This document shows, one piece after another, positions 7,394 through 41,611 of a stretch of DNA of 44,650 nt. The notes under the pieces were generated by a model that was given only the letters and a program-made list of their open reading frames with translations, did not search any database and had not been told where the DNA came from. Source of the DNA: a virus; IMG/VR virus record IMGVR_UViG_3300025703_000004, positions 1-44,650 of that record. The stretch is one strand, 5' to 3'. The position numbers were made by a program, and so were the translations under genes. Each line of letters begins with the position of its first letter. The first letter of the stretch is position 1.

Positions 7394-8179
7394 TCATTTC
7401 TCATCCTCCACCACCGGCGTGAAATCCCCGCGCCGCTGTTTTTTTTGAATTTTTTGGACCAGCGCCGCCATTTTTTTTAGCTCTTCCTCCTGCTCCTCCG
7501 TCCGGTCCTCTTCCAAAATCGCTTCTAGCTCCCGCTTCCGGGTGGAAACAGCCGCAAATTGGTTCGTCAACGCCTTGCGGGCCTCTTCCTTCGAGGCGAA
7601 GCCACCATTCTTCTCTATCTTCTTCCCCTTGTCTGTCTGTTTACTGTCTGTCTGTCTGTCTGTAGCAGAATTTTTCCCAGACGGTTCCTGATGGGCGGGA
7701 ACATGGCGGGAATTTTTCCCAGACGGTTCCTGATGGGCGGGAACATGGCGGGAATTTTTCCCAGACGGTTCCTGATGGGCGGGAATTAATGCCGGTTGCG
7801 TCCCGTTCAGATGCGGACATTCAATGTGTTCCACCCAGTTGATTTTGGGCTGTGCAAACCACAGTAACGCCTCCTCAAAGGCCGCGGCGGGTATCGTCGG
7901 CAGCAGTGATGACATGTCTTCATAGTCCATCGCCGCACCGCCACGGATCAACCATCCCCGCTCGTTCATCGCGCTCTGGCTCGCCAGCGTCTCGAGCAGC
8001 GTCCACATGCCCAGCAGGGCCGCGTTGCGCGGGTGCGGCTCGCGCAGCGTCTTGCCGATGCCAAAGCCTATCAGCTTCGTCTGCTTCGCATACCAGCCCA
8101 TGAAATCCGTCTTGCGCGTGTCCGCGCGCTCGTATTTCAGATGCCACTGCGTGATGTGCCAGGCCTTAGTCATAATCAT
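7394..8179 (-). CDS. Phage replication protein with internal 14-residue repeats
   Basis: 261 aa from 8179, where ATG overlaps the previous stop as ATGA. The N-terminal half (…KQTKLIGFG…LLGMWTLLETLASQ…GWLIRGG) resembles phage replisome-organiser or DnaD-like initiators by general pattern only. Then come nearly three copies of PAHQEPSGKNSRHV from a 42-bp tandem DNA repeat, a Thr/Asp/Gln stretch from a GTCT repeat, and a charged coiled-coil C-terminus (KRELEAILEEDRTEEQEEELKK). It lies just before the helicase, fitting an initiator or loader. The DNA repeats inside the gene could be origin iterons. Confidence 0.7.
   Translation of the reverse strand: MIMTKAWHITQWHLKYERADTRKTDFMGWYAKQTKLIGFGIGKTLREPHPRNAALLGMWTLLETLASQSAMNERGWLIRGGAAMDYEDMSSLLPTIPAAAFEEALLWFAQPKINWVEHIECPHLNGTQPALIPAHQEPSGKNSRHVPAHQEPSGKNSRHVPAHQEPSGKNSATDRQTDSKQTDKGKKIEKNGGFASKEEARKALTNQFAAVSTRKRELEAILEEDRTEEQEEELKKMAALVQKIQKKQRRGDFTPVVEDEK
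7630..7663. repeat. GTCT microsatellite
   Basis: Short run of the tetranucleotide GTCT, interrupted once, inside the replication gene and coding for a TDRQTDSKQTD segment. A tetranucleotide repeat in a coding region can shift frame by slippage. Confidence 0.8.
7671..7785. repeat. 42-bp tandem direct repeats in the replication gene
   Basis: Units start at 7671, 7713 and 7755 (the third partial), identical over the shared length. Each encodes 14 residues (PAHQEPSGKNSRHV). Repeats of this kind inside an initiator gene are where lambda-type phages keep origin iterons, so this is an origin candidate. Confidence 0.85.
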
Positions 8180-10148: not shown

Positions 10149-10177
10149 AATGTAGGATAAACAGTGTTCAACGTCAA
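10149..10177 (-). promoter_or_regulatory. Leftward promoter of the RHH gene
   Basis: Minus-strand TTGACG (10177-10172), 17-base spacer, TACATT (10154-10149); ATG six bases downstream, so leaderless. Confidence 0.7.
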
Positions 10178-10208
10178 GCAAAATAATTAAATTATTATTT
10201 TGCTTGAC
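10173..10208. promoter_or_regulatory. 15-bp palindrome, probable operator
   Basis: Arms GTCAAGCAAAATAAT (10173-10187) and ATTATTTTGCTTGAC (10194-10208) are perfect inverted copies with a six-base A/T centre. Each arm contains the -35 box of one of two divergent promoters, so a bound repressor would close both. Confidence 0.85.
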
Positions 10209-10420: not shown

Positions 10421-10545
10421 AAACCTTCACCCCAAAAACAAAATCCATCACCATGAAAACCATGACTCGTAAAACCCAAACCGCCAACTTCATCGGCATC
10501 ATTCACAAGCTGTGCACCATCGCCGAACGCAGAGTTGACGCATGA
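10417..10545 (+). CDS. Very small basic protein, 42 aa
   Basis: MKTFTPKTKSITMKTMTRKT followed by QTANFIGIIHKLCTIAERRVDA. Starts on ATGA overlap and stops on an ATGA overlap with the next small ORF, inside attC-like site p1. Its opening MKTFTP is like that of the integrase (MKTFTL). Coupling supports a real gene; no function seen. Confidence 0.5.
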   Translation: MKTFTPKTKSITMKTMTRKTQTANFIGIIHKLCTIAERRVDA

Positions 10546-10625
10546 ATGATACGCCGCCCACGATGCCCGATTTGCAAGCCGACGTGACCGGCGTATCAGT
10601 CATTGCGTCCAACGATTTGTTAGCC
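10522..10625 (-). repeat. attC-like site p1 (recombinase locus)
   Basis: Read on the minus strand: R'' GGCTAAC, arm TTGGACGCAATGACTGAT, loop, arm ATCATTCATGCGTCAA, R' GTTCGGC. The arms pair with one mismatch, an extra G and an extra A in the 5' arm. Polarity is opposite to the main array and points away from the recombinase gene. It overlaps the stop of 10417-10545 and the start of 10542-10646. Confidence 0.82.
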
Positions 10626-10646
10626 GTCACGGTCGAAAAACACTGA
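10542..10646 (+). CDS. attC-overlapping leader peptide, 34 aa
   Basis: MNDTPPTMPDLQADVTGVSV followed by IASNDLLAVTVEKH. It starts in the attC p1 loop and ends at the first bases of the promoter repeat. The end (NDLLAVxVEKH) recurs in the 20-aa ORF at 11660-11722, so both are probably products of the same attC-plus-repeat junction. Whether the peptide matters or only its translation does is unknown. Confidence 0.4.
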   Translation: MNDTPPTMPDLQADVTGVSVIASNDLLAVTVEKH

Positions 10647-10800
10647 AATCGTCAATGTTTTCAAGGGTAAAATAAATCGCATAAATCTGATAATAATGTA
10701 TTGACAAAACACGGCAATATGCGAAACTATGGGTGTCAGATGAATCTGACAATCGCCCCGGCGAAACCGGGAAGTGAACAAACAACAAAACAAAAATATG
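10634..10800 (+). promoter_or_regulatory. Promoter/structured-leader repeat, copy 1
   Basis: About 165 bases, repeated at 11077-11220 and 11711-11873. A/T-rich upstream part, TTGACA (10701-10706), AACTAT (10725-10730, spacer 18), then a leader with two hairpins: TGTCAGA-TGAA-TCTGACA (10734-10751) and CCCGG-CGAAA-CCGGG (10757-10771), followed by an A/C-rich unstructured stretch to the ATG at 10798. No Shine-Dalgarno sequence. Confidence 0.8.
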
Positions 10801-11022
10801 ACGACTCAAAAAAATCCTTGGACTGGTGGACTGTTCGGAAACACTGAAGCCGCGCAAAAAGCGTTTGGAAACCAAACCTTTTCTGACGAGCAAGTGGAAT
10901 GGTCTGAGGAATATCACCACAACATCGCGACCGCTGCTGACCGCGCTCGCGTTGAATCCCTGGAAGGTGACGAGGGACAAATCATCGCGTGGTATTGGAA
11001 CGACTCTTTTCGCGCTCAATGA
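10798..11022 (+). CDS. Hypothetical protein, 74 aa
   Basis: MTTQKNPWTGGLFGNTEAAQ, then KAFGNQTFSDEQVEWSEEYH, ending IIAWYWNDSFRAQ. Acidic, with several Trp; not recognised. Start at 10798 chosen right after the A/C-rich leader; a GTG at 10774 is in frame and lies in the leader. Acidic small early proteins are often inhibitors of host enzymes, but nothing specific shows here. Its stop overlaps the next start (ATGA). Confidence 0.68.
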   Translation: MTTQKNPWTGGLFGNTEAAQKAFGNQTFSDEQVEWSEEYHHNIATAADRARVESLEGDEGQIIAWYWNDSFRAQ

Positions 11023-11147
11023 AAACCACATGCCCGCATTGCGGTGGGGTGATAAACCCCGCCGCGCTTCTCGGAGCGAAAAACACTGAAATCGTCAATG
11101 TTTTCAAGGGTAAAATAAATCGTAAAAATCTGATAATAATGTGTTGA
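11019..11147 (+). CDS. Small zinc-knuckle protein, 42 aa
   Basis: MKTTCPHCGGVINPAALLGA, then a tail KNTEIVNVFKGKINRK encoded by the start of promoter repeat copy 2. The single CPHCGG knuckle resembles the start of a zinc ribbon, and the later part looks replaced by repeat sequence, so this may be a truncated gene. The stop codon overlaps the -35 box (TTGACA) of the following promoter. A 9-bp hairpin (about 11041-11065) lies within it. Confidence 0.45.
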   Translation: MKTTCPHCGGVINPAALLGAKNTEIVNVFKGKINRKNLIIMC

Positions 11148-11220
11148 CAAAACGAAGATGAAATGCGAAACTATCTGTGTTGGAAGAAACCAACAAATCG
11201 CCCCGGCGAATCCGGGAACA
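11077..11220 (+). promoter_or_regulatory. Promoter/structured-leader repeat, copy 2
   Basis: Same architecture as copy 1: TTGACA (11144-11149) and AAACTAT (11168-11174). The first leader hairpin has a different sequence, TGTTGG-AAGAAA-CCAACA (11178-11195), still perfectly paired, while the second (11202-11216) is conserved. This points to selection on RNA structure. Confidence 0.78.
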
Positions 11221-11238
11221 GAAAAACACTGAAACAAA

Positions 11239-11442
11239 ATGAAAACTGAAATCACCCTCGAAATGCTGACCAAAGCGGTCGGTTCCAAACAAGCCAACGA
11301 ACTCAACGCCTCATTCCCGGTTGGCGATCCCATCCGACAGATAATTTTCGGCGCGTGGTATGCGCCGTCGAACTATTCGCATGAAGGTGCAATCCAAGCC
11401 GCGCTCGGTGGCTGCCATGAAGACTTCGCCGATGCACTCTGA
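11239..11442 (+). CDS. Hypothetical protein, 67 aa
   Basis: MKTEITLEMLTKAVGSKQAN, then ELNASFPVGDPIRQIIFGAW, ending EDFADAL. Not recognised; helical with a GDPIRQIIFGAWYAP core. Driven by promoter repeat copy 2; preceded by ACACTGAAACAAA without a Shine-Dalgarno sequence. Its 3' end overlaps the next gene in another frame. Confidence 0.65.
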   Translation: MKTEITLEMLTKAVGSKQANELNASFPVGDPIRQIIFGAWYAPSNYSHEGAIQAALGGCHEDFADAL

Positions 11443-11617
11443 AACCAAATCAGTCGGAAGGCCGCTCGCGGACGAAACCGCCGCCAGCGGCCACATCCAT
11501 CTTCGCGTGACGATGGAGCGCAAAAACAAATACGTCCGCGCCGCCCGCCGCCGCAAAATGAAGCTCTCGGAATGGATGCTGGCGACGTGCGACCAGGGCG
11601 AGGCTAGTGACGGCTAA
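11417..11617 (+). CDS. Small basic protein with GRPL-RKN domain, 66 aa
   Basis: Start at 11417 or at an ATG 15 bases later; the longer frame from 11360 overlaps the previous gene more deeply. The segment from SVGRPLADETAASGHIHLRV through MERKNKYVRAARRRK to LSEWMLATCD is clearly homologous to the C-terminal third of the 12098-12544 protein. The basic helix and the small size suggest a DNA-binding repressor-like module (inference). The stop codon (TAA) lies in the R' box of attC p2. Confidence 0.65.
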   Translation: MKTSPMHSETKSVGRPLADETAASGHIHLRVTMERKNKYVRAARRRKMKLSEWMLATCDQGEASDG

Positions 11618-11701
11618 CGCTGACATCAGGCACGCCGGGCCGGGGCGTGCGGATTGAAAATGAGGCGTCCAGCCGGCGTTGCCTGCAACGATTTGTTAGC
11701 C
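11612..11701 (-). repeat. attC-like site p2 (recombinase locus)
   Basis: Minus strand: R'' GGCTAAC, spacer with AAATCGTTG, arm CAGGCAACGCCGG, loop, arm CCGGCGTGCCTG, R' GTTAGCC. The arms pair fully with one extra A in the 5' arm; the outer part of the stem is poorly paired. Same polarity as p1. Confidence 0.78.
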
Positions 11702-11722
11702 GTCGCGGTCGAAAAACACTGA
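11660..11722 (+). CDS. attC-overlapping leader peptide, 20 aa
   Basis: MRRPAGVACNDLLAVAVEKH. Starts in the attC p2 loop and ends at the beginning of promoter repeat copy 3, like its relative at 10542-10646. Too short to judge as a protein; listed because of the parallel. Confidence 0.3.
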   Translation: MRRPAGVACNDLLAVAVEKH

Positions 11723-11873
11723 AATCGTCAATGTTTTCAAGGGTAAAATAAATCGCATAAATCTGATAATAATGTGTTGACAAAACACGGCAATATGCGA
11801 AACTATGGGTGTCAGATGAATCTGACAATCGCCCCGGCGAATCCGGGAAGTGAACAAACAACAAAACAAAAAT
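11711..11873 (+). promoter_or_regulatory. Promoter/structured-leader repeat, copy 3
   Basis: Nearly identical to copy 1, including hairpin TGTCAGA-TGAA-TCTGACA. TTGACA at 11777-11782 and AACTAT at 11801-11806. The A/C-rich stretch ends at the ATG of the 11874 gene. Confidence 0.8.
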
Positions 11874-12095
11874 ATGAAATACTCCGAAAAAATCACCGCT
11901 GAATTTGCACCCTCAACCACGACCCCATGCTGGTCTATCTACATCGCGTCAGTGATGACAGCCGGTGGGATATACACCGAGGGACATTCTTACGGCACGA
12001 CCCGCGACGAGGCGATCAGTGGCGCATCACGCAATCTCGCAGCAAAGGTGGAGCGCGGAGTGGGCAGTGCTTACGCAGTCAGCTACGCAAAATAA
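11874..12095 (+). CDS. Hypothetical protein, 73 aa
   Basis: MKYSEKITAEFAPSTTTPCW, then SIYIASVMTAGGIYTEGHSY, then a helix DEAISGASRNLAAKVERGV. The beta-then-helix pattern is that of a small alpha/beta fold; not recognised. Start at 11874 after promoter repeat copy 3; a GTG at 11850 is in frame inside the leader. Confidence 0.65.
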   Translation: MKYSEKITAEFAPSTTTPCWSIYIASVMTAGGIYTEGHSYGTTRDEAISGASRNLAAKVERGVGSAYAVSYAK

Positions 12096-12097
12096 TT

Positions 12098-12544
12098 ATG
12101 GCTCACAAATTCGAACACGGAAAAGACTCGGACGTGTGCGTCCGATGTGCCGAAGAATCTCACGCCGACAACGCGGCGATCAAAAAAATGAAAATCAAAT
12201 GTCCAAGTTGTAAAAAAGAAATCGTGCAGGTGTCGCACTCGCCGGGCGTCGTGGAATCCGGCGCAGAGGTTGAGTGCGGCGCGTGCGGAAATATCTGGAC
12301 ACCATTTCCAGCGCGGGGCGGTGGCGCTAAAACCGCCGACCTAGGACGCCGCCCTGGTCGTCCGCTGAATGACAGCGTAGCTGCCACCGGACACATCCAA
12401 ATGCGCGTCGTGATGGTGCGCAAGAACTGGTATGTGCGGATGGCGAGACTCCACAATCTGACACTGGCGGTATGGATGCAGCGCGTGTGCGACGAAGAAT
12501 CAGGCTACCCGCCAAAGAGCCAGCTAGTGACGGCTAACTGTTAA
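12098..12544 (+). CDS. Zinc-finger protein with C-terminal GRPL-RKN domain
   Basis: 148 aa from the ATG at 12098. Two Cys pairs early (CVRCAEES) and a ribbon CPSCKKEI…CGACGNIW (about 30-65), then GRRPGRPLNDSVAATGHIQM, RVVMVRKNWYVRMARLHN and a helix ending WMQRVCDEES, homologous to the 11417-11617 protein. The pair suggests that a mobile C-terminal module was fused to a zinc domain here. The tail TAN(C) reads GCT-AAC through the attI-like box in the same frame as the cassette genes elsewhere. Last gene before the recombinase. Confidence 0.7.
   Translation: MAHKFEHGKDSDVCVRCAEESHADNAAIKKMKIKCPSCKKEIVQVSHSPGVVESGAEVECGACGNIWTPFPARGGGAKTADLGRRPGRPLNDSVAATGHIQMRVVMVRKNWYVRMARLHNLTLAVWMQRVCDEESGYPPKSQLVTANC
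12532..12538 (-). other. attI-like R box beside the recombinase gene
   Basis: GTTAGCC on the minus strand, 28 bases upstream of the recombinase ATG and identical to R' of attC p2. The 16 bases GCTAGTGACGGCTAAC are shared by this place and the attC p2 end, as expected for a cassette boundary. Confidence 0.55.
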
Positions 12545-12566: not shown

Positions 12567-13802
12567 ATGAAAACCTTCACCCTCTTCAAGCGGTCCGACC
12601 AACGCGACGCACCCTACTATTTCAAATTCACCTTTCGCGGCAAAACCTGGCTGCGCTGCCTCCAGACCAACGACGCCGCCATCGCCCAGCAACGCGCCCG
12701 CGCCCTGCACAAAGAGATCACCGAGTCCATCATCACCGGCCAGTTTGAACGTCTGGACGCCACTAAAACCCGCCACACCGTCCACGCCACCCTCGCCGAA
12801 CTGATCGCCGCCTACCGTCAATCTCCCGTGGACGCCGCGCAAAAAACGCGCGAGTCGAACATCAACGCCCTTTACAACGTCCTCCGTCGTGCCAACGTAG
12901 CAGCCGATGTAAATCGGCTCAATTCAACCCCTTACCCGCAACTGCTCACGGCCGTCACCGCCGCCAAATTCTTCGCCCAGGCCTGTTTTGAAACCCGCGC
13001 CGACGACCAGACCGAAAACGTCCGTAAAAAACGCACCGCAAATTCGTTGTGGCTCCAGGCCGCCAGCATCTGCGCCCCGCGCGCCATCGCGTATTACAAA
13101 ACCCTCGGCATCTACCATGATTGCCTCGATGCGTTTTCAAACGCCGGCATCCTGCACCGCTTCACCCGGCTCCCGCGCATCGAATACAATCCGCCCGCGG
13201 ACGACATGATCCAAAAAACCCTCGCCGCGTGGGAAGCATTTGAAGACAGAAATGTCTTCCTCGCCATCGGCCAGATCCTAGCCTTCGGCCTGCGCGCCGA
13301 TGAAGTCGCCCAGTCCCGCACAAGCTGGTGGACCACGCGCCACGGCTACCCCGTCCTTGATGGCGAAGCCCGTGTGAAGAACAAAACCGGCATCGTCCAG
13401 GTGCGCGCACTGGATCCGTTCTACACAACGATGCGCGTCAAAGCCATCAGCCGCGGCTGGCTCACATTGGGCACCGGCGACTCGCCGGTCATCACCGGCT
13501 CCGACAGCTACCGCGACGACGGCTTTGAGCGCGAAGTCTCCGCCTTCCTGCGGTCGCACGGTTGGGAAACCCAAAAAACGAACCACGCGCTCCGGGCCTA
13601 CGCCGGCAGCCAGGTCGCCATGAAATACGGCATCTACGAGGCACAGACCTGGCTGCGGCACAGCAGCGTCAAAGTAACAGAGTCGGCCTACAGCCATTTC
13701 ATCCGCAAATTCAAGCCCCAGAACCTCGACGACATCCCCGCGCGCTGGGCCGTCCTCGATCAAGCCCCCATCCTCTCCATCGTCCAAGCTGCCGAACAAT
13801 GA
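12567..13802 (+). CDS. int: Tyrosine recombinase (phage integrase type)
   Basis: Site-specific recombinase of 411 aa. The N-terminal about 60 residues (FKRSDQRDAPYYFKFTFRGK…) look like an arm-type or variant SAM-like binding domain. Catalytic residues visible: R243 (FGLRADEV), a Lys near 271, H340 and R343 (NHALRAYAG), H365 (WLRHSS) and nucleophile Y375 (SAYSHF). It lacks the HTLRHSFATHLL-type core and the extra helix of integron integrases, so it is not IntI in the strict sense. Its gene sits 28 bases from the attI-like box and points away from the attC sites, the place an integron integrase would hold. It could serve lysogenic integration, cassette movement or both. Confidence 0.85.
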   Translation: MKTFTLFKRSDQRDAPYYFKFTFRGKTWLRCLQTNDAAIAQQRARALHKEITESIITGQFERLDATKTRHTVHATLAELIAAYRQSPVDAAQKTRESNINALYNVLRRANVAADVNRLNSTPYPQLLTAVTAAKFFAQACFETRADDQTENVRKKRTANSLWLQAASICAPRAIAYYKTLGIYHDCLDAFSNAGILHRFTRLPRIEYNPPADDMIQKTLAAWEAFEDRNVFLAIGQILAFGLRADEVAQSRTSWWTTRHGYPVLDGEARVKNKTGIVQVRALDPFYTTMRVKAISRGWLTLGTGDSPVITGSDSYRDDGFEREVSAFLRSHGWETQKTNHALRAYAGSQVAMKYGIYEAQTWLRHSSVKVTESAYSHFIRKFKPQNLDDIPARWAVLDQAPILSIVQAAEQ

Positions 13803-41195: not shown

Positions 41196-41578
41196 ATTCT
41201 ATTGTTAGGTGACGGAGCGTTAGCCTTGAATTGCTCCATCAGTTCTTTGGTTTTGAAGCCGAACCATGTTCGACCGTGCATCGTTACATTCCCGCGCCGC
41301 CAGATGCCTTCATGCCCGTGCATCGGCGATGATTGGCGACCGAGCGAGCGGTAGCACCAATCGCGGATTTCGCCATCGAGATCGCCCGTGAACACATCGA
41401 GCATCCAAGGGGTTGGCGACCATTCGCTTTTCATCAGCGCCTTTTGTTCGGCGTCACCGTAGTCTTCAGCCATTGTTTTACGATAGAGTTCAGTTCCGTC
41501 GCCTAACAAGGGCGCTGGAGACAACCCCGATTGTGCATCGCAGTTGTCCGCTTCGGATTTTAGGATTTCGGGCGTCAT
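41192..41578 (-). CDS. Hypothetical protein, 128 aa (cassette 1)
   Basis: The first about 27 residues (…PAPLLGDGTEL) are encoded by attC 1. The body has EWSPTPWMLDVFTGDLDGEI, a WCYRSLG segment and WRRGNVTMHGRTWFGFKTKE, with many Trp and a strand-like end. Not recognised. It ends SPNNRI, read through the attI-like box in the common frame, and its stop overlaps the start of the backbone gene. Confidence 0.7.
   Translation of the reverse strand: MTPEILKSEADNCDAQSGLSPAPLLGDGTELYRKTMAEDYGDAEQKALMKSEWSPTPWMLDVFTGDLDGEIRDWCYRSLGRQSSPMHGHEGIWRRGNVTMHGRTWFGFKTKELMEQFKANAPSPNNRI
41204..41210 (+). other. attI-like R box at the portal end of the array
   Basis: GTTAGGT with no full attC to its left; only a weak partial complementarity (GCCAGCGTGCCA near 41102 with GGCACTGC near 41183) is seen. 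It defines the left border of cassette 1. On the minus strand it reads CCT-AAC in frame with the first cassette gene. Confidence 0.6.
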
Positions 41579-41611
41579 AGGTTCGGGGTGTCTCAGCTTC
41601 GTATGTTAGGC
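41501..41611 (+). repeat. attC-like site 1
   Basis: R'' GCCTAAC, R' GTTAGGC. Arms GCTGGAGACAACCCCG and CGGGGTGTCTCAGC pair fully, with one extra G and one extra A in the 5' arm. Arm sequence differs from other sites with compensating changes. Confidence 0.9.

Follow-up and report, generated by a model that had tools for sequence, protein, structure and literature searches.

Does the promoter that occurs three times in this phage lead into a functional RNA structure, and what might such a structure do? The window, that is, the whole stretch of 44,650 bases analyzed here, is an IMG/VR virus record and represents a phage: it encodes a DnaB-like helicase, a major head protein, a tail collar fibre protein, a virion structural protein, and a phage integrase, and has a weak terminase match. 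The integrase (12567-13802) gave no match to Pfam Phage_integrase and a weak one to PHROGs; relatives with 36-49% identity were found in five other viral contigs. A terminator scan also revealed a long A+T-rich palindrome of 15 pairs at 10173-10208 (GTCAAGCAAAATAATTAAATTATTATTTTGCTTGAC), and self-comparison showed tandem direct repeats of about 42 nt at 7668-7785.

The original prediction described three repeats at 10634-11873, and when these were checked against the sequence, the elements, coordinates, and sequences given for them were all correct. The three copies of the unit, put at about 165 bases, are real, but the repeat shared by copies A and C begins 31 nt further upstream (10603 and 11679). 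Copy A (10603-10801), which comprises an attC-like right end, the promoter, two hairpins, and an A/C-rich start region, is 97% identical to copy C (11679-11877) over 199 nt and 85% identical to copy B (11077-11239) over 165 nt; all three are on the plus strand. In each copy, TTGACA, 16-17 nt, and GAAACT are followed by hairpins 1 and 2, with a few unpaired bases between them, and then by AA, a stretch rich in A and C, and ATG. TTGACA was present in every copy, as predicted (10701, 11144, and 11777). The putative promoters occupy 10701-10728 in A, 11144-11172 in B, and 11777-11804 in C (plus strand), with spacers of 16, 17, and 16 nt, and GAAACT, with TGC directly before it, is the candidate extended -10 element of each.

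Hairpin 1 has the sequence TGTCAGA-TGAA-TCTGACA in A (10734-10751) and C (11810-11827) and TGTTGG-AAGAAA-CCAACA in B (11178-11195). Hairpin 2 is CCCGG-CGAAA-CCGGG in A (10757-10771) and CCCGG-CGAAT-CCGGG in B (11202-11216) and C (11833-11847). All six lie on the plus strand and fold. The CCCGG/CCGGG stem is thus conserved in the three copies, as had been noted; its pattern occurs three times in the window versus 0.03 expected from shuffles, and a covariance model run over the whole 44.65 kb found exactly three sites, copies A, B, and C. Hairpin 1 had been described as changed on both sides. Its sequences were confirmed, but the change does not consist of single compensated substitutions: one segment is replaced between A and B. 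Because the -35/-10 spacer and the whole of hairpin 1 change as a block from A to B, the window holds one event, and since A and C are a recent duplication, it supplies little independent evidence by itself. Covariation within the window, taken alone, is weak evidence.

The leader recurs outside the window in computational matches to dozens of viral contigs and to conjugative plasmids. Pattern scans found viral relatives with equal spacing and another hairpin 1 in contigs L039, L068, L107 (two copies), L109, L104, L065, L061, L110, and L108; further viral members include L120, L151, L131, L153, L136, L145, L188, L117, L126, and L155, among others. The first pattern used, TTGACAN{14,24}TGCGAAACTAT, was set aside: it matched 50 loci in viral contigs, with the leader present only in L019, which is the same phage, and in L039. 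The promoter pattern had 34 hits in genome_contigs, none with the leader. The non-redundant hairpin 2 hits numbered 69, and 53 of them had an ATG ORF just downstream. None of 34 related records contained VirD4, so these are not obviously misfiled plasmids, and one terminase family was present in 9 of 35. Another relative, L057:4359-4419, whose integrase is 36% identical, has the same AATAATGTATTGACAAAAC promoter start and lacks the hairpins.

Among plasmids, the IncHI2 plasmid R478 has two copies, at 252.8 kb and 218.2 kb. The second of them is present in 983 plasmid records, which belong mostly to one plasmid lineage and are therefore not independent. Other members are on plasmids of Nitrosomonas stercoris and N. 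eutropha and, twice, on Shewanella pSA70-3. In the proteobacterial forms, a Shine-Dalgarno sequence is often enclosed in an additional small hairpin, TCCT-GAT-AGGA. This form was found in 0 of 369 sampled gammaproteobacterial genomes, which indicates that it is not a common chromosomal leader in gammaproteobacteria, and GenBank phages contained no convincing copy. A hit in Elizabethkingia was discarded as it resembles a terminator. In Rfam 15, the gathering threshold was not reached in the window nor over the leaders of 13 related loci (there were two hits elsewhere in those loci), and the only other score was a chance one to a snoRNA (E 4.6).

Searches beyond the window recovered homologs with compensatory changes, which supports the RNA structure that had been proposed for the 5' leader. 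The family consensus of hairpin 2 is CCSGG, a CGRMW pentaloop, and CCSGG, usually followed by AA. Our search pattern accepted either C or G in the middle of each arm, with no requirement that the two should pair. All 23 hits having a -35-like element and a downstream ORF were nevertheless complementary here (23 of 23), and 11 of 30 hits without promoter and ORF were mismatched. The search patterns partly selected for hairpin 2, and in an alignment of 15 sequences three of its five pairs vary on both sides, with 97.3% of the cells paired (matched by 0 of 500 shuffles). In flank-only scans, which used the downstream sequence and left the hairpins out, the stems were CGGGG/CCCCG in L196 and CCCGC/GCGGG in L199 and L200, the loop always had 5 nt, and one stem was broken (L195).

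Both loop and stem are far more constrained in hairpin 2 than in hairpin 1. Such tightness, and the constant loop length in the flank-only scans, would be expected if hairpin 2, with hairpin 1, were bound by an RNA-binding factor encoded by the host or by the element, and the leader were regulated; lambda boxB and the ribosomal-protein leaders are models of this kind. One family also repeats the CGAAT loop on a second stem, TCCAG/CTGGA. The hairpin is, however, common to the phage group of the window, proteobacterial phages, and IncHI2 plasmids, which makes a shared encoded factor unlikely, and we regard a factor-bound leader as possible and rather on the unlikely side. The family with the repeated loop is a separate one (L116, L118, L121, L135, L140, L150, L175, and L185), in which two CGAAT-loop hairpins with differing stems, TCCAG/CTGGA and CCCGG/CCGGG, lie near the start codon.

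For hairpin 1, MAFFT misaligned copies A and B, so anchored stems were compared with shuffles and offset controls instead. Twenty independent leaders were picked by a -35 element at the right distance from hairpin 2. In 14 of them, a stem of 5 bp or more ended at most 3 nt from the CG before hairpin 2; shuffles (n = 1000) averaged 2.9 and never exceeded 9, and no more than 9 were obtained when the anchor was moved 20-58 nt upstream. Stems of at least 6 bp occurred in 11 of the 20 (maxima of 6 in shuffles and 4 with the upstream offset), and in a wider set the stem was found in 22 of 43 leaders (shuffle maximum 14, offset maximum 16). Several members (L108, L118, L147, and L061) have a weak hairpin 1 or none. 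A general count of palindromes did not discriminate hairpin 1, since upstream windows and promoter regions are palindromic in general. This commonness of palindromes, together with the recent duplication of A and C, could be taken to mean that the units are ordinary duplicated phage promoters with incidental palindromes; given the position-anchored test on independent sequences and the 23/23 complementarity in hairpin 2, we consider that very improbable. The two-hairpin structure of the leader is well supported by these sequence comparisons.

Hairpin 1 also differs between copies of one genome while its pairing stays intact. This is seen in the window (A and C vs. B) and between the two copies, a and b, of L107. 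The L039 contig has TGTTGG/CCAACA, identical to the variant of copy B, and TGTAATC/GATTAC, and R478 has TGGCGT/ACGCCA and TGGTGCG/CGCACCA. Loop lengths vary among copies as well. Paired differences within genomes and variable loops are more in keeping with a stem formed in RNA than with an operator common to the copies. The distance from the -35 element to hairpin 2 was 55.5 ± 2.1 nt in the 20 independent leaders, with a 16-base range allowed in the choice of the -35. With this spacing, hairpin 1 would be placed at about +1 to +20, and the predicted transcription start lies upstream of both hairpins, in agreement with the proposal of a leader structure.

The genes of the window bear on a further explanation. 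Leaders A, B, and C precede ORFs of 74 aa (10798-11022), 67 aa (11239-11442), and 73 aa (11874-12095), which belong to no known family. The A/B unit is closed by a 60-aa ORF (11435-11617) with a weak NikA-like (ribbon-helix-helix) match below the cut-off (Pfam PF21983, E 0.029), and the C unit by a 148-aa ORF (12098-12544), the C-terminal part of which aligns with the 60-aa ORF and the N-terminal part of which resembles a zinc ribbon; all five ORFs are on the plus strand. A homolog 87% identical to the 148-aa ORF follows the leader in L039.

Around +1 to +20 is the usual position of an operator, and hairpin 1 might be a DNA operator for a repressor such as the ribbon-helix-helix-like protein of each unit. 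The establishment regulon of plasmid p576 has repeated promoters, operators, and a ribbon-helix-helix repressor (PMC8708921), and the NikA-like ORFs downstream of the window leaders keep this explanation alive. Against it, hairpin 1 sequences differ between copies in the same genome (the window, L107, L039, and R478), the half-site spacing shifts with loop length, and the ribbon-helix-helix-like gene with 87% identity lies behind a hairpin of the A type in the window and of the B type in L039; we therefore hold an operator to be improbable. In EGeRS2 of p576, described for Gram-positive plasmids, dual-heptamer Reg operators (TTATCCC) flank the promoter (PMC8708921). In both systems, several copies of a strong promoter region precede genes of a single mobile element, ardC among them, and the set includes a ribbon-helix-helix protein, but the p576 regions are defined by Reg operators and not by leader hairpins. 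The EGeRS2 TTATCCCnnTTATCCC motifs by the -35 element were absent from the promoter regions that we examined.

The predicted position of hairpin 1 brings to mind a different precedent. The ompA 5' stem-loop, which lies no more than a few nucleotides from the 5' end, reportedly serves as a 5'-terminal mRNA stabiliser, in work ascribed to Emory et al. in 1992 (reference listed in PMC3997798). Promoter spacing would place hairpin 1 at the same extreme 5' position, where pairing is expected to outweigh sequence. Unlike the leader described here, ompA has neither a conserved second hairpin nor a mobile-element family.

Two tandem hairpins at a fixed distance right after a promoter are also reminiscent of HK022 put, which has two leader stem-loops, with putL directly after the promoter, and suppresses termination without additional factors via the beta' zinc-binding domain (PMC9378689). 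If the hairpins acted on RNA polymerase in this manner, the elongation complex would resist pausing and termination, and the wide host range could be explained by a conserved host enzyme. The put RNA, however, is about 70 nt long, with two long stem-loops, another sequence and fold, and non-canonical contacts (PMC9378689), whereas the two hairpins of the leader span about 40 nt with stems of 5-8 bp. In the window, moreover, each small gene has its own leader, instead of one leader for a long operon, so that we give a put-like action little credence. The Frpo/ssi single-strand promoters of conjugative plasmids resemble the leader in that anti-restriction genes of conjugative elements have secondary structure close to their promoters. 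Their -35 and -10 elements are within folded DNA (PMC11541004); in the three copies and in the homologs both candidate elements are outside the hairpins, upstream of hairpin 1.

A possible role as a stand-by site in messages without a Shine-Dalgarno sequence had also been suggested for the leader. A Shine-Dalgarno core was found in 3 of 24 window genes and was missing from the other 21. Starts of this kind are thus general in the phage, and the proteobacterial homologs combine the hairpins with a good Shine-Dalgarno sequence, so the leader is not a substitute for one and the suggested link is not supported. A short open stretch follows hairpin 2, with the start codon at a distance of about 16-25 nt, and the openness of the start region modestly exceeds that of shuffles (0.67 vs. 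0.57; 41 of 54). Flank-only scans also found close relatives of the A/C-rich start region that lack both hairpins (L198 and L201), which indicates that this region does not depend on the hairpins. We rejected the idea of a conserved leader peptide, as the reading frame through the hairpins, read by eye, differs between copies.

Repeats just 5' of where certain small, non-structural phage genes start, including inverted repeats with variable spacers and with no assigned function, are known from Cluster K mycobacteriophages. There, SAS is a 13-bp asymmetric sequence resembling a Shine-Dalgarno sequence, and ESAS has inverted repeats of 17 bp, each subcluster having a single consensus (PMC3203893). 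The leader resembles them in placement and inverted repeats and differs from SAS/ESAS in the variation of hairpin 1 between copies of one genome, in the sequence of hairpin 2, and in its attached sigma70-type promoter. The 13-bp SAS sequence GGGATAGGAGCCC was absent from the 22 nt leading up to each of the three start codons in the window.

The repeats of the window lie close to sequences that resemble integron attC sites. A fold-based scan found an attC-like palindrome (GGCTAAC...GTTAGCC, with 7 R-box and 13 L-box pairs) at 11612-11701 on the plus strand, between the A/B unit and copy C. This palindrome and another at 10527-10627 end in CGATTTGTTAGCC just upstream of copies C and A, respectively, and the units are bounded by GTTAGCCGTC and GACGGCTAAC. 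Compared with the attC consensus, RYYYAAC...GTTRRRY with pairing L boxes, 11612-11701 is off at one R-box position and 41501-41611 fits fully. The latter is a candidate for a full attC-type site (GCCTAAC...GTTAGGC, with pairing L boxes), and more R-box-like sequences occur at 41.2-41.9 kb on the minus strand. These features suggest that the phage may carry gene cassettes; no integron integrase was seen in it. Sites of the attC type have already been described in phages (PMC9892861). In L039, L104, L109, and L108, the leader is likewise preceded by a similar attC-like right end. The idea that the whole repeat is part of an integron was dropped because attC-like sequence precedes only copies A and C and these four leaders and not those of L107, L068, and L065.

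Most of the 49 proteins encoded downstream of the leader had no match; a few are of the ArdA/ArdC anti-restriction type. ArdA, the ArdC N-terminal domain, LPD29, a metallopeptidase, a methyltransferase, and Lcl_C were each matched by one protein and DUF5710 by two; three PHROGs families matched by downstream proteins carry the name anti-restriction, and a DUF5417 gene follows the second leader copy of R478. These matches suggest that the leader may be used for early accessory or anti-defence genes, a link limited by the few genes concerned among the 49, the rest being mostly without a match.

The reading that we favor, with a probability of roughly 45%, is that of a mobile, modular 5' leader in which hairpin 1 would protect the message and hairpin 2 would hold the start region open and/or bind a host machine. 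Transcription from the sigma70-type promoter would start just 5' of hairpin 1, so that the message begins with this hairpin, whose sequence is nearly free and whose pairing is kept, and hairpin 2, nearly fixed in sequence, would follow about 1-3 nt later. Hairpin 1 would shield the 5' end from 5'-end-dependent RNA decay in the manner of ompA. Hairpin 2 may insulate and hold open the initiation region and/or be recognised by a conserved host machine. The predicted outcome is strong expression early after DNA entry, and phages and conjugative plasmids would place such a leader before small accessory genes, some of them for anti-restriction.

The leader would be a new RNA motif of mobile elements, being absent from Rfam and new relative to the open-access literature. 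It is common to phages of different hosts and to the widespread IncHI2 plasmids, and its two copies on R478-type plasmids make it amenable to reporters in E. coli. A more speculative and rather doubtful extension is that hairpin 2 is a signal for a universally conserved host machine, RNA polymerase or the ribosome, which would make the leader an expression module shared across phyla for early accessory and anti-restriction genes. If that were true, searches for the leader would offer a route to uncharacterised anti-defence genes. The leader could also serve as a marker of genes switched on soon after DNA enters the cell, the majority of them uncharacterised.
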